A stretch of DNA of 64,000 nt. Origin: Candidatus Fermentibacteraceae bacterium (GTDB lineage: Bacteria; Fermentibacterota; Fermentibacteria; Fermentibacterales; JCC-6). Below the pieces are notes generated by a model. The model searched no databases and was not told the origin of the DNA. It saw only the letters and a list, made by a program, of their open reading frames with translations. Where the stretch lies: contig JADGDO010000008.1 of the NCBI GenBank assembly GCA_016744855.1, forward strand, positions 62,001-126,000, written 5' to 3'. The position numbers and the translations under genes were made by a program. Within the stretch, counting starts at the first letter, position 1; each line of letters starts with the position of its first letter. Below, one piece after another: positions 2,887-44,314 of this stretch.

Positions 2887-3869
2887 TGCTTATGCAATAT
2901 GATTATCTCGTGACAGGGGGAGCCGGTTTTATCGGCTCTCACCTGTGCGAAAGGCTGATTTTAGAGGGTAAATCTGTCTGTGTTCTTGATGATCTTTCAA
3001 CTGGACATCTTGAAAACATTGAACGTCTTCTCTCTTCAGAGAACTTTCTTTTTGTAGAAGGTTCAGTTCTCTCAGCCGACATAGTTACAGAGTGTGTTCA
3101 TAAGTGCAACACAATAATCCACTTGGCTGCTGCTGTGGGTGTCGAGAATGTCATTAATAGACCTGTAGAAACTATTGAAACAAATGTGAGCGGTACGGAA
3201 AATGTCCTCAGGGCAGCAAGACACAACAATTCTAAAGTCTTTATCGCTTCAACAAGTGAAGTTTATGGAAAGAGCTGGAAGGTTCCCTTTTCTGAAGATG
3301 GTGACATTGTACTTGGAGCCACATCAAGAAACAGATGGAGCTATGCCTGCTCGAAAGCTCTTGATGAATTCCTTGCTCTTGCATACAATCATTCCTACAA
3401 TCTACCCGTCGTTATCTGCAGGTTTTTTAACACAGTCGGACCCAGGCAGTCTGGAAGATACGGAATGGTTCTTCCAAGGTTTATCAATCAAGCGCTTACT
3501 GGCAAACCTATAACTGTATTCGGTAACGGCACACAGACTCGTTGCTTCAGCCTTGTTAACGAAGTAATTGACTGTGTTCTCAAGTTGCTTGAAACACCAG
3601 AGGCAGTCGGTAATGTGATCAACATTGGCTCGACAGAGGAAATAACAATTCTTGAACTTGCAAGACGAGTTCGAGAGATTTCCTCCTCCAATTCTGAAAT
3701 TGTTATTGTCCCTTACGATGAAGCCTATCCTGCAGGTTTTGAAGACATGCAGCGAAGAGTTCCCGATGTTACAAAACTGAAAAAAATGATTGGTATCTGC
3801 CCTGAAGCAGATACAGAAACCATTATCCGGCTAATTATCGAAAACGGAATTCCAGAGGGAAAACAGTGA
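2886..3869 (+). CDS. NAD-dependent sugar-nucleotide epimerase/dehydratase (extended SDR)
   Basis: This is a 327-residue extended short-chain dehydrogenase/reductase acting on nucleotide sugars. The NAD-binding glycine motif TGGAGFIGSHL is at about residues 9-19, followed by an acidic DDLSTG after the second strand. The catalytic YxxxK is YACSK near residue 156, preceded by the Ser-containing ASTSEVYG. The later RFFNTVGPRQ and VLPRFINQAL segments are typical of UDP-glucose 4-epimerase, UDP-glucuronate decarboxylase and dTDP-glucose dehydratase relatives; the sequence alone does not fix the substrate. GTG at 2886 overlaps the preceding TAG. An in-frame ATG at 2892 is an alternative start. A role in envelope glycan synthesis is inferred. 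Confidence 0.9.
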   Translation: MLMQYDYLVTGGAGFIGSHLCERLILEGKSVCVLDDLSTGHLENIERLLSSENFLFVEGSVLSADIVTECVHKCNTIIHLAAAVGVENVINRPVETIETNVSGTENVLRAARHNNSKVFIASTSEVYGKSWKVPFSEDGDIVLGATSRNRWSYACSKALDEFLALAYNHSYNLPVVICRFFNTVGPRQSGRYGMVLPRFINQALTGKPITVFGNGTQTRCFSLVNEVIDCVLKLLETPEAVGNVINIGSTEEITILELARRVREISSSNSEIVIVPYDEAYPAGFEDMQRRVPDVTKLKKMIGICPEADTETIIRLIIENGIPEGKQ

Positions 3870-4651
3870 TTCATACAATTACCAGTCGAGCAAATATTCG
3901 AATAAAATTGGCCATATCCCTCCAAAAACCTTCTTCCTGCCGGAAAAGACACAGATTTCTGATGGAGGGCCCTAAATTTGTCAGTGATCATCTAACAAGA
4001 AATGGCTCTGTTGATTTCATTGCAGTAAGTCAGGAAGCATCCGATGAGACCCTACTGCTTGCAAGAATGGCTGACAACAGTGGGCATTCTGTTATACAAA
4101 TTCCAGCTGAAATTTTTTCTTGTATATCAAATACTGGCACTCCACAGGGAATCGTAGCCATCTGCCCTATACCGGATCACTCTGTTAGTGATTTGTTTAC
4201 AGGTAAAACAGTTCTTATTTTGGATAAGGTTGCTGATCCGGGGAATGCAGGTACCGCAGTTCGTTCAGCCGCAGCTTTCGGTTGCTCTGGTGTTGTATTC
4301 CTGAAGGGTAGTGCTTTCCCCTGGAGTCCCAAAGTAACCAGATCTGCAGCGGGTCTGAACTCTTCTATTCCCATCTGTGAAGTAAATGATCTTGCTGCAA
4401 TCAGAAAACTGTTTCCCAATTACTTAATTCTCGGTGCAGAAAGCACTGGTTCTCAAATGGATGATCTGCTGCAAACCATAAATCAACCTGTATGCTTAGT
4501 AACAGGTTCTGAAGCTCATGGGTTGTCAGAGGTATCAGCTACTGCTTTAGACGGTAAGATATCAATTCCCATGGCAGCCGGTGTTGAGTCTCTCAATGCG
4601 GGTGTCAGCGCTTCTATCCTTCTATCCGGTCTGTTCAGAAAGAGCTCTTAA
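3866..4651 (+). CDS. SpoU/TrmH-family RNA 2'-O-methyltransferase
   Basis: This SAM-dependent SPOUT methyltransferase probably methylates a ribose in 23S rRNA or tRNA. It is 261 residues long. An N-terminal substrate-binding domain (residues 1-100; FLMEGPKFVSDHL and GTPQGIVAI) precedes the trefoil-knot domain. The three SpoU motifs are visible: motif 1 LDKVADPGNAGTAVRSA (N and R conserved), motif 2 CLVTGSEAHGLSE, and motif 3 ISIPMAAGVESLNAGVSASI. The GTG start overlaps the epimerase TGA. Its 3' end overlaps the convergent minus-strand selenoprotein gene by 17 bases. RlmB and TsnR types cannot be separated here. Confidence 0.9.
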   Translation: MIHTITSRANIRIKLAISLQKPSSCRKRHRFLMEGPKFVSDHLTRNGSVDFIAVSQEASDETLLLARMADNSGHSVIQIPAEIFSCISNTGTPQGIVAICPIPDHSVSDLFTGKTVLILDKVADPGNAGTAVRSAAAFGCSGVVFLKGSAFPWSPKVTRSAAGLNSSIPICEVNDLAAIRKLFPNYLILGAESTGSQMDDLLQTINQPVCLVTGSEAHGLSEVSATALDGKISIPMAAGVESLNAGVSASILLSGLFRKSS

Positions 4652-5261
4652 TACTTCCAAAAGTGCTTGCTTGAAGATCTTCTGTTGTAACAAACAAAAG
4701 ATTGGGAACGACTGTTGTAAGATATCCTGTTTCCCCATTTGGAGTTGCAGTGACAAGAGCATGATTAGCTGTGTCTTCCCAAGTCATCGCGTATATCCTG
4801 CTGTCAGGAGGGTCCACCGGGCCATTCCATGAAAGTTCGTAAAGAAGGTTTGATGATGAACTGTAAAAAAACGGTTCATCAAACTCGAAAACAATCCACT
4901 CTCCACCGGTTACACCTTCGAGCTGTAAATTTGCTTCTGAATAGATTTCAACAGGGGAAGACAACCAGTTTGTTTCGAACCTTGTGTGCAATTCATCAAG
5001 ATCTGTATAACCGAGTTTTATAGAAAAATCATTGTACTCACCTGTTTTCTGCGAGTAGTCCGATGGCATAAATGCAATTGCAGATAACTCTACAGGAACT
5101 CCACCCATATTTTCAACTGTTACCATCACCTGATGGCGTCTGGAGTCTCCGTTTCAATGACAAAATGGATCAAGTGACTCAAATTCTGCTTGACCAATTT
5201 CAATTGCTCCTGCGTAAAGTATACCTGTAATAAGCATTACGGCAGAGATAGTTTTTCTCAT
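4635..5261 (-). CDS. Secreted protein with in-frame TGA, predicted selenoprotein (paralog 1)
   Basis: The gene reads from ATG at 5261 to a stop at 4635 if the TGA at 5154-5156 is decoded. Residues 1-18 form a signal peptide (MRKTISAVMLITGILYAG). The mature protein starts AIEIGQAEFESLDPFCH, then TGA (residue 36), then NGDSRRHQVMV. The total is 208 residues. Downstream of the TGA the frame stays open for 172 codons and matches the proteins encoded at 34669-35280 and 35453-36061, including the C-terminal STFGSIKSSF. A hairpin with an AGGT loop lies 17 nt after the TGA. TGA is an ordinary stop in many neighbouring genes, so insertion of selenocysteine is the best explanation. The motif here is CxU, one residue shorter than in the other two paralogs. 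The function is not known. It is divergent from a secreted M28 peptidase. Confidence 0.8.
5122..5137 (-). promoter_or_regulatory. Candidate bacterial SECIS hairpin
   Basis: On the minus strand CCATC-AGGT-GATGG forms a 5-bp stem, extended by a G-T pair, with the tetraloop AGGT. It begins 17 nt after the TGA and the loop lies about 23-26 nt after it. Bacterial SECIS elements have a G in the first two loop positions at about this distance; the E. coli fdhF loop also starts AGGU. The stem covaries with the hairpins at 35142 and 35923. Confidence 0.75.
5154..5156 (-). other. Recoded in-frame TGA (predicted Sec36)
   Basis: The codon follows PFCH and precedes NGDSRRHQ. Conservation of protein sequence continues on both sides relative to the two paralogs, so it is not a true stop. 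It sits one codon nearer the Cys than in the paralogs. Confidence 0.8.
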
Positions 5262-28873: not shown

Positions 28874-30007
28874 ATGTTCACTGGACTTGCAGAGGGTGTA
28901 GGACTCGGACTTGCAACCGGAATATCATGCCTTGCTTCATGCGGGCCTATTTATCTTACTTATCTTCTTAGCGAACAGCGATCGAGCAGGCAATCGCTGG
29001 TAACTATTCTGATGTTGAATCTAGGCCGGTTCCTTTCCTATGCGGCATTTGGAGCTATTATGGGTCTACTTGGGGGTAGCATCCCATCCTCTATCAGAAT
29101 ACCTCTTGCATTCTCGGGTTATATCCTGTTCTCAGTATACATGGTTCTTTCCGTAATCAGAGTAAATAAAACCTGCGGAGGATGTGACATTCCCAAGTGG
29201 ATGAAGCTTACAAAAAGCCCGATTCTTCTTGGAATTCTTACAGGATTTTCTGTTTGTCCTGCATTTCTCATTGCCTTGACCAGTGCTTTTGACACCAGTG
29301 GAGCTCTAAACGGGGCAATGCTTTTTACAGGTTTCTTCCTTGGAACAACGGTATACATGCTACCATTTGCTATCGTGGGCCTTTTCAGTAAAAAGAAATG
29401 GCTGAATTCAGTAGCCAAATATGCAGCTATTTTTGTAGCTGTCTATTTTGGTATTCTAGGTATCAAAGGACTCGCAGGATACATTCTACAAAATGGTGAT
29501 GTGGTTATTGATATGCATGAGCACGAGGAGACGGAATCCGGTCCTGTGAGTATTTATAATGCCCTTGAGGAAGATTCTCTTTACATTCTCACTTTCCCCG
29601 AAATCAGTGGAGATCGTGGTACCGATATCTTCAATGATCTTCAAGGAGCTGAAGGACCGGAAATGGTTCTGGTTCTCGCTGACACGACCAACTGGGAACA
29701 AGCGTTGAATTCGATTCCGGAACTCTCAGGAGTTATCGCCCCCTGGTGGATGGATTTCAGGAGCGGAGATGAACTAACACTCTGGCAGCAGGAAGCCAAT
29801 CTTTCAGCAGATGAACGGCGCTTCAGATTGTTTGCAATTGAATATGAACCTTATGATACAGAGCGAGCAGGTATTGTTTATCAATATCTTGCCAGGTACA
29901 GCTTCAGGTGCGATCCTGATTCAGGATTGACATTCTTACTAACAAGCGAAGCTGGGTGTGCAACCGATGCTGATTGCAACACCTGTCCAGCTTTTCAGAC
30001 CGAATAA
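28874..30007 (+). CDS. CcdA/TauE-like redox membrane protein with periplasmic domain
   Basis: This 377-residue protein has six membrane helices in its first 200 residues, resembling the CcdA/DsbD or TauE/SafE (UreH-like) transmembrane family that carries thiol electrons across the inner membrane. Cysteines sit where such proteins need them: CLASCGP in helix 1 (C18, C22), CGGC in a loop (about 101-104) and VCPAF in a later helix (about 127). After residue 205 comes an acidic linker and a soluble domain of about 165 residues that I do not recognise, ending in a Cys cluster CATDADCNTCPAF. It follows the exported-ferredoxin operon after a terminator. Delivery of reductant to periplasmic thiols is plausible. 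Confidence 0.8.
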   Translation: MFTGLAEGVGLGLATGISCLASCGPIYLTYLLSEQRSSRQSLVTILMLNLGRFLSYAAFGAIMGLLGGSIPSSIRIPLAFSGYILFSVYMVLSVIRVNKTCGGCDIPKWMKLTKSPILLGILTGFSVCPAFLIALTSAFDTSGALNGAMLFTGFFLGTTVYMLPFAIVGLFSKKKWLNSVAKYAAIFVAVYFGILGIKGLAGYILQNGDVVIDMHEHEETESGPVSIYNALEEDSLYILTFPEISGDRGTDIFNDLQGAEGPEMVLVLADTTNWEQALNSIPELSGVIAPWWMDFRSGDELTLWQQEANLSADERRFRLFAIEYEPYDTERAGIVYQYLARYSFRCDPDSGLTFLLTSEAGCATDADCNTCPAFQTE

Positions 30008-33102: not shown

Positions 33103-34641
33103 CTATTTATCGAATTCCTCATCCGAATCCATCTCAGGTTCCTGTGATCTAATTCCCTTTATCTTGTTCCAAAGAGCAAGACGAGCAAGAATTGCCTGAG
33201 CTGCACCATAGAAACAAAGATACCGGCAAAAGAATCTTCGTACATAAATAGCGAGTAATATCGTTAACCCAGCAATTACCAGACTACCGGAGAGGAACAG
33301 TGTGAAAATTGTGTGGAAGGGATCAACAGCGCAGAAAGGTGTCGACCATCTCAAAGAAATCAGTTCAAACCTGTTGAGCAGTATCAAAGCTATAAGAGCA
33401 AAGAGAATGACTGTGCTGAGGTGTCTGAGCTTCCTGTGCCACTTCCCGGATGGAGACATACTGCCCGGAACATGAATACTGTATAAAAATTCCTGGACTG
33501 CTCCCATGGGACAGACCCAGCCACAAAAAACTCTTCCGAAAAAAGCACTGAATACGAGTGGCATAAGGAAAATGACAATACCGCTTATACCCAGAAAACT
33601 AAGACCTTGGGCGGTAAATGCATACTGGAAAGCACCAAGTGGGCAAAAACACCCCTGTACACCAAAACCAAGGATCATTAGGGAAACACCGCGTACAATA
33701 TGGTGTGCCGAATTTCTCTTTAATCTGTCTTTCAGTCTTCGTCCGTAGAATTTTCTTGAGAGCCAGGTTGATACGGGTAGGAGAAGACCGAGTGTAATCA
33801 GAATGATGCTTATTCTTCTGTTGCCTCCGGCTGGATTTGAACAGGATGTTCCGGAGGTGACTCCATACCAATGTGGGCACAGAGCAAGAGAGTCCGGGCA
33901 GGCAGCCTCAGGAGGAAGGCCCAGAGGACATCCTATCACGGAGGGAGTCTGACGGCTACTTGAAGAATCAGTAGCCTGACAGGAAGCTCCATCCTGTCGA
34001 CCGGGTCCCGGATTGTCACAGAATGTGTTTCCATCAGAATCTACAAAGAAGGAGCAGGCAGGATTTTCTTCGCTGCAGGCTTCTGCAGGAGAATAGCCGA
34101 GAGGGCAGGTGTTTCGTTGCACATGAGAATCAGATTCAATTTCTTCAACTGCTGCAACCTCTTCGATCTCTTCCTCTGCAGTATCCTCTTCAACTTCAAC
34201 CGGATCATCCACTTCTTCAATTTCAACAATTTCTTCTGTATTTTCTTCTGGTGTTGAATCTTGCTGATCCGAAGTTTCCGGATTGTCCTCAACCTCTTCA
34301 ATGATTTCTTCAACCGGAACAACTGGTTGCGGCCCTGGGTTATCACAAAGATTGTCTCCGTTGGAATCAGAATAAAGGGTACATCTAGCAGTACTCTGGC
34401 TGCAAGCCTCTTCAGGGGTGAGGGTGAGAGGACAGAAAGGATCTGAAGTTGGTTCTGGTTCGGGCTCTGGTTCGGGTTGACTCTGTGGACCGGGATTGTC
34501 GCAGAGAGTGTCGGCGTCACCATCGCTGAATAGACCACATGATGGATTGTCGGAACTGCATGATTCCTCGGGAGAAAACCCGAGCGGGCACTGCGCAAAG
34601 AGGGCAGAAGCCACAAAAAGAAGAATTAGAAGATGTTTCAC
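33103..34641 (-). CDS. NapH/NosR-like membrane iron-sulfur protein with four Cys-rich repeats
   Basis: This 512-residue protein starts with a signal peptide (MKHLLILLFVASALFA). Four exported repeats of about 36 residues follow at roughly 18, 70, 178 and 237, each with C-x9-C-x6-C-x9/11-C spacing and a DSDGDxxCDNPG-like ending (for example CPLGYSPAEAC ... FCDNPGPG). A long Glu/Pro-rich spacer separates repeats 2 and 3. After about residue 275 come five or six membrane helices with NapH-type motifs FCGWVCPMGAVQEF and FCRYLCFYGAAQAIL; the usual second CP is CF here. The typical C-terminal ferredoxin domain is missing. The gene follows a selenoprotein gene by 27 bases. A role in passing electrons across the inner membrane is inferred. 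Confidence 0.82.
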   Translation of the reverse strand: MKHLLILLFVASALFAQCPLGFSPEESCSSDNPSCGLFSDGDADTLCDNPGPQSQPEPEPEPEPTSDPFCPLTLTPEEACSQSTARCTLYSDSNGDNLCDNPGPQPVVPVEEIIEEVEDNPETSDQQDSTPEENTEEIVEIEEVDDPVEVEEDTAEEEIEEVAAVEEIESDSHVQRNTCPLGYSPAEACSEENPACSFFVDSDGNTFCDNPGPGRQDGASCQATDSSSSRQTPSVIGCPLGLPPEAACPDSLALCPHWYGVTSGTSCSNPAGGNRRISIILITLGLLLPVSTWLSRKFYGRRLKDRLKRNSAHHIVRGVSLMILGFGVQGCFCPLGAFQYAFTAQGLSFLGISGIVIFLMPLVFSAFFGRVFCGWVCPMGAVQEFLYSIHVPGSMSPSGKWHRKLRHLSTVILFALIALILLNRFELISLRWSTPFCAVDPFHTIFTLFLSGSLVIAGLTILLAIYVRRFFCRYLCFYGAAQAILARLALWNKIKGIRSQEPEMDSDEEFDK

Positions 34642-34668: not shown

Positions 34669-35280
34669 TTACCTGAAAGATGCCTTTATACCTGCAAAAG
34701 TCATCTGATTCAAAGCCATATCACCGTTGATGAGAATGTGTGGTACTTCCATCCACGGATTTCCAGTAGGACTATCGTAGGCTCCACTCACTGTATGATT
34801 ACCGGTTGTTGTTGAGTAGAAAGTATAAATTTCATCCTCGCCGTTAGGCCATGCAATCTCGAAAACAAGATTACCATTTGCCGGGACATAAAAGAATGGT
34901 GTCTCAAAATAGATGGTTGGATCTGTGTCCTGGAAAGTGACTGGTGTTGCACTGTCAAAAACACGATACTTTGTTCCATTTATGTAATTGGCGTCATATC
35001 TATCACCGAGCTCATCGTTGGCACAGTAGCCCATGTCTACATAGAACTCATCAAAAGTTACACTGTTCGTCTGGCCTCCGGGGCCTGTGAAAAATGAAAT
35101 CGAGTTAATAACCATTGCTTCTGAAAACTCACTTGCGTTTACTACCACCTGGTAGCGTAAAGAGTTAGTTCAATTGCCGCAAAATGGCTTAGACCCGCTA
35201 ACCTGATTCGAGCCGATTTCTACACTTGCAGCCAAAAGCATTGGTACTGCAAGAAGTAGAAGAAATACTGATTTTTTCAT
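34669..35280 (-). CDS. Secreted protein with in-frame TGA, predicted selenoprotein (paralog 2)
   Basis: The gene reads from ATG 35280 to the stop at 34669 if the TGA at 35170-35172 is decoded (203 residues). Residues 1-18 form a signal peptide (MKKSVFLLLLAVPMLLAA). The mature part begins SVEIGSNQVSGSKPFCGN, followed by TGA (residue 37) and TNSLRYQVVVNASEF, so the motif is CGNU, a CxxU arrangement. One further Cys lies in VDMGYCANDELGDRY. The protein ends MTFAGIKASFR, like its paralogs. The fold looks all-beta; the domain resembles a widespread secreted family in which the PF...RYQ segment is conserved, but I cannot name it. A candidate SECIS hairpin lies 14 nt after the TGA. The NapH-like gene follows 27 bases downstream. 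Confidence 0.85.
35141..35156 (-). promoter_or_regulatory. Candidate bacterial SECIS hairpin
   Basis: On the minus strand CTACC-AGGT-GGTAG forms a 5-bp stem plus a G-T pair. It starts 14 nt after the TGA, with the AGGT loop at +20 to +23. Relative to paralog 3 (CTATC/GATAG), C-G replaces T-A, a compensated change within otherwise conserved codons. Confidence 0.8.
35170..35172 (-). other. Recoded in-frame TGA (predicted Sec37)
   Basis: It lies between PFCGN and TNSLRYQV at the same position as in paralog 3, with protein similarity continuing through it. A CxxU redox-type motif would result. Confidence 0.85.
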
Positions 35281-35333
35281 ATATATCATCCCTTTCATGT
35301 TTCGAATTGCATCGAGCACCCGAAATTTGTTCA

Positions 35334-35343
35334 TTTCATGAAA
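35334..35343. promoter_or_regulatory. Palindrome TTTCATGAAA upstream of selenoprotein paralog 2
   Basis: On the minus strand it reads TAGTTTCATGAAATGA, 53 bases before the ATG. The same box, better conserved, lies 51 bases before the start of paralog 3. It could be an operator for a shared regulator, or a relic of gene duplication. Confidence 0.4.
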
Positions 35344-35452
35344 CTATACCAAAACATTCAAATGTTAGCTACCCCATAACAAAAATACACCTACTATTCT
35401 TCTTACAGTACCCCTCAGACTGAAAAAGGTTCGGTAACTAATTCCAATTCAG

Positions 35453-36061
35453 TTAATTGAATAAACTTTTAATACCGGCAAAAGTGGATTGAGTCATTGC
35501 TAATTCTCCCCCGATGAGAAGATGTGACATGTCAGTTAGGGGGTATCCTGTTGGTAAATCATAAGCTCCGGATATTGCTGAAACACCCGGTGTAGGAAAA
35601 TTGAATATGTAAAATTCACCTTCTCCATCTGGCCACACAATATCGATAATCAGATTACCTTCCGATGGATCAAAAACAAAAGGGGAATCAAAATACAATG
35701 TTGGAGAGTGAGAGAATACAGTAAAATTAGAAGTTCTTTCAAAAACTCGAGTTTTAGTACCGCTCACATAATTTTCTTCATAGGCACTATCCAGTTCTGT
35801 GCTGGCGCAGTAGCCCAGATCTACCGAAAACTGATAGAAAGTCGTTTCCTCCCCTGTTCCCGGTACCGAAGAAAAGGTAATTGAACTAATAGTAAACGGC
35901 TCTTCAAACTCATCGCCCTGAACTATCACCTGATAGCGCAAAGAACTTGTTCAATTAGCACAAAACGGTTTGTTGCTTGAAAATTCTGAGGAACCGATTT
36001 CGACAGATGCCGCATAAGCAAATGCGAGAGATAGAACTGAGAGAAGTGCAGCTAGTTTCAC
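35453..36061 (-). CDS. Secreted protein with in-frame TGA, predicted selenoprotein (paralog 3)
   Basis: The gene reads from GTG 36061 (AAAGGA nine bases upstream) to the stop at 35453 if the TGA at 35951-35953 is decoded (202 residues). The signal peptide is VKLAALLSVLSLAFAYAA. The mature protein starts SVEIGSSEFSSNKPFCAN, followed by TGA (residue 37) and TSSLRYQVIVQGDEF. This gives CANU, the same CxxU placement as paralog 2. The remainder is about 45-50 percent identical to paralog 2 by eye, including VDLGYCASTELDSAYEENY, SGTKTRVFE and the end STFAGIKSLFN. The first gene of the minus-strand group, it is followed by paralog 2 after 172 bases. No catalytic domain is recognisable apart from the Cys/Sec pair. 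Confidence 0.85.
35922..35937 (-). promoter_or_regulatory. Candidate bacterial SECIS hairpin
   Basis: On the minus strand CTATC-AGGT-GATAG forms a 5-bp stem plus a G-T pair, 14 nt after the TGA, with loop AGGT at +20 to +23. Together with the hairpins at 5123 and 35142 it shows two covarying base pairs around an invariant loop. Confidence 0.8.
35951..35953 (-). other. Recoded in-frame TGA (predicted Sec37)
   Basis: It lies between PFCAN and TSSLRYQV. Both flanks are conserved with paralog 2 and the downstream frame is open for 166 codons. Confidence 0.85.
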
Positions 36062-40158: not shown

Positions 40159-42180
40159 CTAGCGCAGAACAAGCATTTGTGTTGAGGCAGAGCCTGTTGC
40201 AGAGTTAACTACTAGACTGTAGCATCCGGAAGGAAGTGTGGAAGCATCAAAGCTGAGACTTCCCTCTCCCTCGCTGAGAATACCATCGTGTAGTGTTGCA
40301 GCCATTCTTCCCGAAAGATCGAAAACTGCAATTGTGGCTGTTCCAGCAACAGGCATTGTGAAATTAACAACACAAGTACCGTTTGCCGGATTGGGAATTG
40401 GGGCAGAGATAACTGGTGCTATAATGGAAGGACTACCCTCTGTTTCTTCTATACCAGTCTGTCCGGTGACAAACCTGAGAGCAGGGTCGCCAAGAAGATT
40501 GTTTTCCTGGAGTATCCAATTTTGCATTGAAATGGAAACATTGGCCTTGAACTCATCCTTGGAAATTGCGTGAGCTACACCTATTTCATACTGTTCATCT
40601 TCGAGAAGAACTTCTGCAAAGTATAATTCAAGCCATTCGCTCGGTCCGAAATTCGGAGGAGTCCCAATACCCCAGTGAGAATTGAACATAACTGCAATTC
40701 CACCTCCATCCGGCCAGATCATCAATCTTTCTGCGATACAGGCAACGTTCTGGAGGTGCCCCGGGTGACAGGCCATCGAATGAAAAACAGTAGGCATTCC
40801 AGAATTGCTCAAGTCATAGTAGTTTGCTGAAGTTACAATCCCGGTAGGAGGGAAATCGAACCAGTAAACACCGCCTTCGTTTCCATGCCCATTAAGGGTG
40901 CTGTATGAAACACCTTCGTTTAAGAGATCAATCTGATTGTAGGGATGAGAGGTATAGTCCTCATATAGCTTGTGTACAGTCCAGGACTCGGGTAATCTGC
41001 TGTCGATTGAATCGCAAACAAATGAACCCCAATACCCCGGAGGATCATCAACCCAGAGACCCGCACCTGCCAGTAAGGCAGTCGTCTGCCAATCACCTTC
41101 CGGAGAAGAAGTCTCATAAGCAATAGTTTTTTCTACCATGTTTTCAAGTCTATTGGGAACATCGGTACTGAATCTTCCTACGTAGATATCACTGTACCAG
41201 TCGATCCCGTCTGTTAACTCCCCGTACAGGTTGTCTCCATCCAGATCCCATGAACCATCAAGGTCACTGAAATACAGGTCGGATACAGAATCCATTACGT
41301 TTTCGCCAATACAAAGACTGGAGATCCGGGTAGTTTCTCCATAGTCTCCAACGATAAGTGCATATATAAGTCCCTGGTTCTCGTATGCATCTTTCAGAAA
41401 ATTCCTTATCTGCTCTTGAGAATCGAAACCGTCATAGTTTTCATAGATCCACTGGGTAGACCTGAAAGCAGATCCATGAGTTGCTTCCCTGTGATCAACA
41501 AGAGGCTGAAGAGTTGGAAGAAGAGCTATGTCAGCAATAACCACCCAAGGTGCTCCATCTGTACTGCTTGTTGTTAGTGGAGAACAGCTAAGCAGCATCT
41601 CAGGATTTGAAACAACAGACTCCAGAGCAGAAACCGCTTTTTCTGTCTGCGTGATGGAAAGGGAAAGCATTGGAGCATCACTGTTGGATACAAGAACTGG
41701 AGAAAGAGTTGCACTTGTTACAAGAGATAGAGTCCCAGTAAGTGGATTCAGCTTAAACGGTACAAATGAGAAAGAAGCTATCCTGAAACCAGTTTTGTTT
41801 CCATTGGAGATTTCACAGATCCATGAACCGGGAAAAACATCAGTCAAGTAAGTTGTGGAATGAGGTCTGATCGCTGGAACTGGGTAGGATAATGGGATGG
41901 AAAGCACTGGAATAATGTTGAACCGATTCGGAAAATCAAATGTCGAATGAACCTCAACCTCAACATTATCAAGACTTGTTCCCTGGGGAATCACCATAGA
42001 ATAGTTAACGCCCGGAAGACTGGGCTCTCCATCTGAAAAAGGAGATGAACCTCCCGGTATGGAGATAGCATCCTCACCGCAGTAAGAGCTGAATTCTACC
42101 TGAGCAGGGTTTATCTGAAAAAAAACAGCATCTGGTTGAGTCGGTGCGAAAAGCAAGAATGCCTGCAGTAACAAAATCAT
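40159..42180 (-). CDS. Secreted gingipain-like C25 cysteine peptidase with sorting domain
   Basis: This is a 673-residue exported protease. A signal peptide (MILLLQAFLLFAPTQPDA) and a propeptide region of about 190 residues precede the C25 catalytic domain, which opens with PWVVIADIALLPTLQPLVDH. The catalytic His lies in YSTLNGHGNEGGVYWF (about residue 432) and the catalytic Cys in VFHSMACHPGHLQ (about 470). The last 80 residues are a type IX-like sorting domain (IAVFDLSGRMAATL, LPSGCYSLVVNS) ending QMLVLR. Acidic FSDLDGSWDLDGDN resembles a Ca2+-binding loop. A paralog lies immediately upstream in the same orientation. Confidence 0.92.
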   Translation of the reverse strand: MILLLQAFLLFAPTQPDAVFFQINPAQVEFSSYCGEDAISIPGGSSPFSDGEPSLPGVNYSMVIPQGTSLDNVEVEVHSTFDFPNRFNIIPVLSIPLSYPVPAIRPHSTTYLTDVFPGSWICEISNGNKTGFRIASFSFVPFKLNPLTGTLSLVTSATLSPVLVSNSDAPMLSLSITQTEKAVSALESVVSNPEMLLSCSPLTTSSTDGAPWVVIADIALLPTLQPLVDHREATHGSAFRSTQWIYENYDGFDSQEQIRNFLKDAYENQGLIYALIVGDYGETTRISSLCIGENVMDSVSDLYFSDLDGSWDLDGDNLYGELTDGIDWYSDIYVGRFSTDVPNRLENMVEKTIAYETSSPEGDWQTTALLAGAGLWVDDPPGYWGSFVCDSIDSRLPESWTVHKLYEDYTSHPYNQIDLLNEGVSYSTLNGHGNEGGVYWFDFPPTGIVTSANYYDLSNSGMPTVFHSMACHPGHLQNVACIAERLMIWPDGGGIAVMFNSHWGIGTPPNFGPSEWLELYFAEVLLEDEQYEIGVAHAISKDEFKANVSISMQNWILQENNLLGDPALRFVTGQTGIEETEGSPSIIAPVISAPIPNPANGTCVVNFTMPVAGTATIAVFDLSGRMAATLHDGILSEGEGSLSFDASTLPSGCYSLVVNSATGSASTQMLVLR

Positions 42181-42283: not shown

Positions 42284-44314
42284 CTAGCGCAGCACAAGCA
42301 TCTGTGTTGAAGCAGAGCCTGTCGCTGAGTTAATCACGAGACTGTAGCATCCGGAAGGAAGAGTAGAAGCATCAAAGCTGAGACTTCCCTGACCCTCAGT
42401 GAGGACACCCTGGTGTACAGTTGCTGCGATTCTTCCTGAAAGATCGAAAACTGCAATTGTAGCTGTTCCAGTAGCCGGCATCGTGAAATTAACAGCACAA
42501 GTACCGTGTACAGGATTAGGGCTTGGTGCGGAAATAGCAGGTGTAACAACGGATGGGTTACCTTCTGCTTCTTCTATACCGGTCTGTCCAGTGATAAACT
42601 GAAGAGCAGGATCTCCAAGAAGATTGTTCTCCTGAAGAACCCATGTCTGCATTGATATACTGTAGTTAGCCTTGAATTCATCCTTGGAAATAGCATGAGC
42701 AACACCAATTTCATACTGCTCATCCACAAAGAGGACCTCAGCAAAGATGAGCTCAAGCCACTCACTGGCACCCATGTTAGGAGGGGCACCCCAACCGTTC
42801 TGAGAGTTAAACATAACAGCTACTCCACCACCCTGAGCACGGAACATCAGTCTCTCAGCTATTGAAGCAATGTTCTTGATGCTACCGGCGAGACATGCAA
42901 TAGAGTGGAAAACCGGAGGCATATCATTATTAGTCAAACCGGTGTAGTTACCTGCGGAAATCATATCAGTAGGATTATTGTAGTACCAGTAGATTCCACT
43001 CTCGAAACCATGTCCGGTAGGACTGGTGTAGGAAACACCTTCGTTATAAAGATCAATGATGTTAGTCGGGTGGGCACTGGTGGTTTCATAAAGCTTATGA
43101 ACAGTCCAGGAATCTGGAATTCTAAGATCGATAGAATCACAAACGAAGGAACCCCAATAACCTGATTCAGGCCAGAGACCTGCGCCGGCAAGAAGTGCTG
43201 TCGTCTGCCAGTCTCCGGAAGGAGCGGTAGTCTCGTAAGCAACAGTTCTGTTTACCATTACTTCAATGCGAGAAGGAACGTCAGAGCTATATCTTCCAAC
43301 ATATACATCTGAATAGTAATCAATTCCGTCACCAAGTTCTCCGAATTTGTTGTCGTTATCGGCATCCCAGGAACCGTCAAGATCAGCATAGTAGAGATCC
43401 GCTACTGAATTCATAACGTTTGTGCCTATCTGCAAGCCGGAGATTCTTGTTGTTTCTCCTGTGCCATAGGAAGCACCATCACCAACGATAAGGGCGTATA
43501 TAAGCCCCTGGTTTTCGTAGGCATCCTTGATGTAGTTTCTTATCTTTTCCTGGGTATCTCTACCTGTGTAATTTTCGTAAATCCACTGGGTAGAAACAAA
43601 AGCTGACCCGTGAGTTGTTGCTCTGTGGTCGATAAGAGGCTGAAGTGTTGTCTGCATGGCGTCATCTGCAATAACTACCCATGGAGAACCATCTACACCA
43701 CTGCTGATCTCTGGAGAGTATGCGTCGATCATCTCGGTATTGAAAACGATTGACTCGACAGCTGATGAAGCAGTTCTAACCTGCAGTTCAGTAAGGGGCA
43801 ACTGAGGTGCATCTGTAGAAGGAGCTGTTACAGTAGTAAGGTTTGCGCTAGTAACTAGCGAAAGAACACGTGTTGCAGGGTTCCATGTGAAAGGAACATA
43901 AGTGAAAGAAGCTATCCTGAAACCGGTCTTGTTGCCTGTATTTATGGCTTGAATTGCCGTAGTAGGGAATACTCCTCTTGTATAACTGTCGGAATGAGGA
44001 ATAACAACAGGAACTTGCTGATTCAAAGGAACAGAAAGTACAGGAGCAATATCATAAAAACCGGGAAGGTCTACTTTTGACAGTACCTCTACCTCAACAT
44101 CTTCAAGATATGTGCCCTGAGGTATAACCATGGAATACCCGATTCCGGGAAGACCAGGCTCACCGTCAACAAATGGAGAGGTGCCACTGGGAATGTATAA
44201 AACATCCTCCCCGCGGAACTCTGTGAGTTCAACCACAGCTGGGTCAATCGAGAAAGAGATATCTGATGCCTGAACAGACATCAGAATCATCGCAACTTGC
44301 AGGAATAGAGTCAT
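42284..44314 (-). CDS. Secreted gingipain-like C25 cysteine peptidase, paralog
   Basis: This 676-residue paralog of the downstream protease shares the order of signal peptide, propeptide, C25 domain and sorting domain, and the C-terminal 80 residues are nearly identical. The catalytic His is in SPTGHGFESGIYWYY (about 434) and the Cys in VFHSIACLAGSIKN (about 472). It has the same YYADLDGSWDADNDN acidic loop. Differences around the active site suggest different peptide preferences. The 103-base gap between the two genes includes a terminator, so the genes are probably transcribed separately. Confidence 0.92.
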   Translation of the reverse strand: MTLFLQVAMILMSVQASDISFSIDPAVVELTEFRGEDVLYIPSGTSPFVDGEPGLPGIGYSMVIPQGTYLEDVEVEVLSKVDLPGFYDIAPVLSVPLNQQVPVVIPHSDSYTRGVFPTTAIQAINTGNKTGFRIASFTYVPFTWNPATRVLSLVTSANLTTVTAPSTDAPQLPLTELQVRTASSAVESIVFNTEMIDAYSPEISSGVDGSPWVVIADDAMQTTLQPLIDHRATTHGSAFVSTQWIYENYTGRDTQEKIRNYIKDAYENQGLIYALIVGDGASYGTGETTRISGLQIGTNVMNSVADLYYADLDGSWDADNDNKFGELGDGIDYYSDVYVGRYSSDVPSRIEVMVNRTVAYETTAPSGDWQTTALLAGAGLWPESGYWGSFVCDSIDLRIPDSWTVHKLYETTSAHPTNIIDLYNEGVSYTSPTGHGFESGIYWYYNNPTDMISAGNYTGLTNNDMPPVFHSIACLAGSIKNIASIAERLMFRAQGGGVAVMFNSQNGWGAPPNMGASEWLELIFAEVLFVDEQYEIGVAHAISKDEFKANYSISMQTWVLQENNLLGDPALQFITGQTGIEEAEGNPSVVTPAISAPSPNPVHGTCAVNFTMPATGTATIAVFDLSGRIAATVHQGVLTEGQGSLSFDASTLPSGCYSLVINSATGSASTQMLVLR

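Follow-up and report, generated by a model that had tools for sequence, protein, structure and literature searches.

Two adjacent minus-strand genes in a 64,000 nt stretch of a Candidatus Fermentibacteraceae genome (contig JADGDO010000008.1; the whole stretch is referred to below as the window) contain an in-frame TGA shortly after the start codon, which raises the question of whether this TGA is a stop codon or a codon for an amino acid. An earlier note on the window had considered the pair likely to encode members of a new selenoprotein family. This reading is supported by the presence of tRNA-Sec, SelA, SelB and SelD, by homologs with Cys in place of the TGA-encoded residue and by a covarying hairpin of the bSECIS type. 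The two genes, designated A and B, and their homologs very probably constitute a selenoprotein family with TGA as the codon for selenocysteine (Sec).

Genes with an in-frame TGA and their homologs

Gene A (35453–36061, minus strand) has a GTG start, a TAA stop (35455–35453) and 202 codons, with the putative Sec codon at codon 37 (TGA, 35951–35953); its product has a putative signal peptide followed by a predicted jelly-roll domain. Gene B (34669–35280, minus strand) starts with ATG, ends with TAA (34671–34669) and has 203 codons, again with the predicted Sec codon at codon 37 (TGA, 35170–35172). The frames remain open after the TGA for 165 codons in gene A and 166 in gene B, and the two genes are 49% identical through the TGA, in agreement with the homology claimed earlier. 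Both have the same layout: a hydrophobic leader, PFC-x-N, the TGA and xxSLRYQV. Elsewhere in the window TGA is an ordinary stop, as had been pointed out for positions 3867, 8124, 10085 and 13449.

The description of the locus as a tandem pair was right in that both genes are real, but it drew the set too small: the family extends over several phyla, and a third copy in the window had been missed. This paralog (4635–5261, minus strand), of the PFCHU form, has the putative Sec codon at codon 36 (TGA, 5154–5156) and is terminated by another TGA (4635–4637); the first TGA is read through and the second serves as terminator. Altogether the host genome has nine paralogs, with TGA at the same site in all nine; their leaders are of the MKK-(hydrophobic)-A-x-A type, as judged by eye. 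On base composition alone, a single gene has a probability of ∼4e-5 of staying open for 166 codons by chance. This value, the TGA at the same site in the nine paralogs and the dN/dS of 0.06–0.23 observed after the TGA (14 pairs where it was computable) together exclude a chance open frame. Purifying selection acts on the sequence 3′ of the TGA.

Of the phylum's 42 genomes, 40 have family members according to a profile built from the nine paralogs; among the matches listed, 17 were without TGA. We read 107 members in the phylum, 94 with TGA and 13 without. In every one of these 13, all of them full-length, Cys occupies the TGA site (e.g. PFCADCAVSMRYQTLYLEEE and PFCGDCWQSLRFQ) and aligns with the TGA of gene A; CxxU is exchanged with CxxC. 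No exchange of TGA for Trp was seen among the homologs. A tree inferred from 110 members after masking of this site requires three Sec/Cys changes, of which strongly supported branches force only one.

Reading of the TGA codon

The host genome, a metagenome-assembled genome (MAG) of 3.24 Mb and 95% completeness, has a canonical tRNA-Sec with UCA anticodon (68.1 bits; gathering threshold 47) as well as SelA (503 bits), SelB (317 bits) and two SelD proteins (339 and 310 bits), with selA and selB adjacent; the absence of tRNA-Sec and SelB, which the earlier note had named as fatal to its proposal, is therefore not what we found. The two SelD genes are distinct (G000:C85:30587 and G000:C10:33589). 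Both have an in-frame TGA within CAGUAGK, the known SelD Sec context, followed by a hairpin of their own, so that Sec decoding is to be expected in this genome. SelD resembles the family in having an in-frame UGA and then a hairpin, but it is a cytoplasmic kinase and the proteins are unrelated. Across the phylum, tRNA-Sec of at least 68 bits is present in 36 of the 42 genomes. Five genomes in which TGA-bearing members occur (G013, G016, G019, G023 and G031) gave no strong tRNA-Sec match, probably owing to gaps in the MAGs and to strict filtering. tRNA-Sec and the family occur together in nearly all genomes, and the joint presence of the two is non-discriminating.

In the mRNA, the UGA is followed at a distance of 13–16 nt by a hairpin of six pairs with a 4 nt loop, the loop being AGGU in 80 of the 99 Sec members and starting 19 or 22 nt after the UGA. 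The predicted hairpins of the window genes are GCUAUC-AGGU-GAUAGU in gene A (35922–35937, minus strand; −11.2 kcal/mol), GCUACC-AGGU-GGUAGU in gene B (35141–35156, minus strand; −9.0 kcal/mol) and GCCAUC-AGGU-GAUGGU in the third paralog (5122–5137, minus strand; −8.9). According to published rules, a bSECIS has a loop of 3–9 nt with a G in the first two positions, a stem of 4–16 bp, a distance of 16–37 nt from the UGA and a minimum free energy of −7.5 or lower (PMC13188914); with a 4 nt AGGU loop, 6 bp, a spacing of 19–22 nt and the energies given above, the window genes conform to them. The complete six-pair stem forms in 93 of the 99 Sec members but in 0 of the 13 Cys members, although both groups retain RYQ in the protein.

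The strongest evidence comes from codon choice. The third base of the Tyr/His codon, where C and T are synonymous, tracks the first base of the codon three positions on, G of Val versus A of Ile/Met: unique hairpins show 38 C-G, 21 T-A and 1 T-G combinations (Fisher 3e-15), and although such counts are inflated by kinship among the sequences, the same pattern is found again in different paralogs and phyla. Val after Gln is encoded by GTG in 78 of 80 cases, as compared with 29% GTG elsewhere in the same genes, and in members with Met in place of Gln the closing pair C-G turns into A-T. In a set of 50 distinct hairpins, pairing holds in 99.3% of cells, with both-side changes in three pairs; the covariation score is 0.47 versus 0.31 (sd 0.02) in shuffles, and none of 500 shuffles scored as high. 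Individually, these short hairpins are no more stable than shuffled sequences (z from −0.4 to −1.1); such folding scores being uninformative, the case for the hairpin rests on covariation. Comparison among members shows, at the level of sequence, selection on the hairpin as RNA.

The same protein motif is also encoded with the hairpin in a second register, e.g. GGUACCAG-GUU-CUGGUAC with a 3 nt loop, in WOR-3, in Zixiibacteriota and in two Fermentibacterota copies; many TGA members outside Fermentibacterota have it. Its stem is CCAG/CUGG and its loop GAC, GUU or GUG (L094, L156, L165–L169 and L205 onward). With these two SECIS registers, a single coding site has two solutions at the RNA level.

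The comparison with Cys homologs shows read-through of the UGA, with Cys as the alternative residue, and we infer that the amino acid inserted is Sec. SelA, SelD and tRNA-Sec would produce Sec-tRNA, and SelB acting on the mRNA hairpin would deliver it at the UGA. Decoding of the UGA as a residue other than Sec (as Trp or Cys, or via a suppressor tRNA) is very unlikely: Cys is indeed aligned at the site in non-TGA homologs, but TGA is the stop codon of other genes in the window, the UCA tRNA is the canonical tRNA-Sec, no TGA-to-Trp exchange was seen and the hairpin accompanies only the UGA forms. A genome-wide alternative code (TGA as Trp or Cys) was rejected, since TGA ends other genes and the third paralog itself. 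Least probable of all, to the point of being negligible, is that the TGA is a real stop, with the genes being pseudogenes or the downstream part a separately started protein: translation table 11 does predict a stop, and GTG or TTG codons soon after the TGA permit mechanical ORFs of 159 and 162 aa, but the arrangement is conserved in nine paralogs and across four phyla and ∼40 genomes, a protein made of the downstream part only would have neither signal peptide nor first strand, and the low dN/dS and the Cys homologs, which are continuous through the site, led us to reject a separate downstream ORF, the other outcome that the earlier note had named as refuting.

Distribution and novelty of the family

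Beyond Fermentibacterota, the family was found in 29 of 147 WOR-3 genomes (six TGA loci), in 11 of 14 genomes of the phylum of a Zixiibacteriota MAG (∼40 TGA loci read; up to 28 copies per genome, non-Sec copies included) and in a Chitinivibrionales (Fibrobacterota) MAG with two TGA loci. For the first three TGA loci outside Fermentibacterota, each genome has a tRNA-Sec of 66–71 bits. The family spans four or more little-studied phyla of bacteria, often with many copies per genome. Four genomes of the Zixiibacteriota phylum (G044, G199, G200 and G201; L205–L254) have 22–28 copies of the domain each, and tandem arrays there mix TGA-bearing and non-Sec copies (e.g. G044:C56:28018-33239). Two Zixiibacteriota loci (L236 and L237) have NS or NA in place of CU (PFRGNSGV, PFRGNAGV), an apparent secondary loss of both residues.

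More distant relatives (PFWGxxYxxxRFQxLYLQSEI and similar) in WOR-3, Zixiibacteriota, Nitrospiria, Gammaproteobacteria and Bacteroidota have neither Cys nor Sec, and the Sec/Cys site therefore looks like a later addition to an older secreted domain. This unnamed domain (PF...RYQ/RFQ.L.L.SEI in Bacteroidota, WOR-3, Zixiibacteriota and Nitrospiria) is homologous to the family over most of its length; it differs in that the relatives read lack Cys and Sec at the site. Some of its proteins have tails of the T9SS or FlgD type: in some outgroup members the C-terminal domain is Por_Secre_tail (below the curated cut-off) or FlgD_ig, which supports an extracellular place.

The earlier note knew of no described family with the PFCxNU/RYQV signature, and our searches agree. 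The family has no match to Pfam and NCBIfam models, including NCBIfam release 20 (June 2026) with its many selenoprotein models, and none of the 119 prokaryotic selenoprotein families and subfamilies catalogued in a 2026 review matches by motif or domain (PMC13188914). Literature joining Fermentibacteria or Zixibacteria with selenoproteins, within a coverage that leaves out subscription papers and preprints, does not describe it. Known CxxU selenoproteins (SelW-like, AhpD-like, GrdA, UshA-like family 2 and the TonB receptor of the FCYXU type; PMC13188914, Table 1) share with the family the C-x-x-U spacing, UGA-encoded Sec, a bSECIS immediately downstream and Cys homologs, and some are extracytoplasmic; the family differs in matching no Pfam or NCBIfam model, in its predicted jelly roll and in the many Sec paralogs per genome. 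What is new is the family, the fold and the expansion; being a selenoprotein is not new. The rarity of selenium outside the cytoplasm, put forward earlier, holds in that few selenoproteins are known with this fold, a secreted β-sandwich, and in this place, but it is not unprecedented, as the catalogue has UshA-like, TonB-receptor and TlpA-like entries (PMC13188914).

The family adds >100 members read, which gene prediction under the standard code breaks in two or cuts short at the UGA, and suggests heavy use of selenium by whole candidate phyla. With its different SECIS registers and its switches between Sec and Cys, all on a single protein motif, it offers a natural series for testing why bacteria retain Sec.

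Predicted structure, gene context and possible function

An AlphaFold2 model derived from 29 members (pLDDT 89.4) is a mostly-β sandwich, predicted to be of the jelly-roll type, with Sec in a loop just before the RYQVVV strand. A thioredoxin-like fold around CxxC/CxxU finds no support, the model being almost all β and its best solved matches β-sandwiches. Foldseek and VIA matches are carbohydrate-binding module (CBM) domains of carbohydrate esterases, a lectin-like domain and PHR domains. The jelly-roll CBMs and lectin-like domain (7toh, 4ci7) and the PHR domains (3gbw) share the overall β-sandwich (VIA Z 8.7–10 over 142–153 residues), but they have ∼10% identity to the family and neither Sec nor CxxU; the likeness of fold says nothing about function. 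A PDB sequence search with the family gave no match.

The protein would be exported through its N-terminal signal peptide and is presumably located outside the cytoplasm. In its mature form it would be a jelly roll of ∼180 residues, with the selenol on the loop just before the RYQ strand and usually three residues after a Cys. A selenol and a nearby Cys are probably either redox active or bind a soft element. We tentatively favor, with less than even confidence, a C/U pair forming a reversible selenenylsulfide for redox chemistry outside the cytoplasm. The CxxU motif proposed earlier is indeed the commonest form, but CxU, CU and SxxU occur too, and some members are missing the partner Cys (PFSGSU, PIGIGU), so that one CxxU redox mechanism may not apply throughout the family.

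For the clade of genes A and B, electrons might come from a membrane polyferredoxin. A gene for a membrane protein with a Fer4_5 (4Fe-4S) domain and Cys-rich repeats at its N-terminus (33103–34641, minus strand) lies 27 nt downstream of gene B, and the same neighbor was found in nine other genomes of the genus, ten in all. The N-terminus of this polyferredoxin has extracytoplasmic, calcium-loop-like Cys-rich repeats (CPLGF..EAC...DGNGDxLCDNPGP), a fusion conserved in the ten genomes. A DsbD_2 transmembrane protein is encoded in the window at 28874–30007 (plus strand) and might supply thiol electrons on the extracytoplasmic side.

Somewhat less probable, and in our opinion unlikely, is that the selenol/thiol binds a soft metal (Cu, Hg, Ag or Cd) or is a structural selenenylsulfide staple on a carbohydrate-binding-like surface domain. 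The resemblance of the fold to carbohydrate-binding modules and a lectin-like domain, the occurrence of CU, CxU and CxxU spacings and the retention of the domain by non-Sec superfamily members without both residues would all fit, but keeping costly Sec for a mere staple is improbable, and no metal-handling neighbor was recognized in the loci read.

Another clade has a different context. Its locus in the host genome reads selB-selA, selD, the family gene, a small DUF3343-like gene (a name given by eye, the gene having no NCBIfam match) and yedF; in another genome (G034) a family gene lies near yedF and selD. YedE (TIGR04112) was detected in 5 of the 42 genomes, and in four of the five a family gene is directly downstream of yedE on the same strand (G009:C74, G014:C44, G022:C70 and G032:C40). 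YedE, YedF and DUF3343 are proposed selenium-metabolism genes (PMC5322559), and members of this clade may act in selenium uptake or homeostasis together with YedE, YedF, DUF3343 and SelD. Both the Fer4_5 and the YedE links were observed in Fermentibacterota only. That the main job of the family is the capture or homeostasis of selenium at the cell surface, feeding or buffering selenium for YedE and SelD instead of general redox chemistry, is doubtful: the two arrangements of this clade speak for it, but most other paralogs have no selenium gene in the stretches read, the clade of genes A and B adjoins the Fer4_5 gene, and 37 of the 42 genomes have no YedE match.

We hold it improbable, yet worth stating, that Sec was added to an existing non-redox, carbohydrate-binding-like surface domain, present in ∼10 Sec copies per genome in several candidate phyla, with one clade in a selenium-uptake locus. 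If true, an extracellular selenoprotein would obtain or buffer selenium for these bacteria.

Elsewhere in the window, tandem C25-type (gingipain-like) peptidases are encoded on the minus strand at 40159–42180 and 42284–44314, the second assigned by eye; the former has a Por_Secre_tail domain, which points to type IX-like secretion in the lineage.
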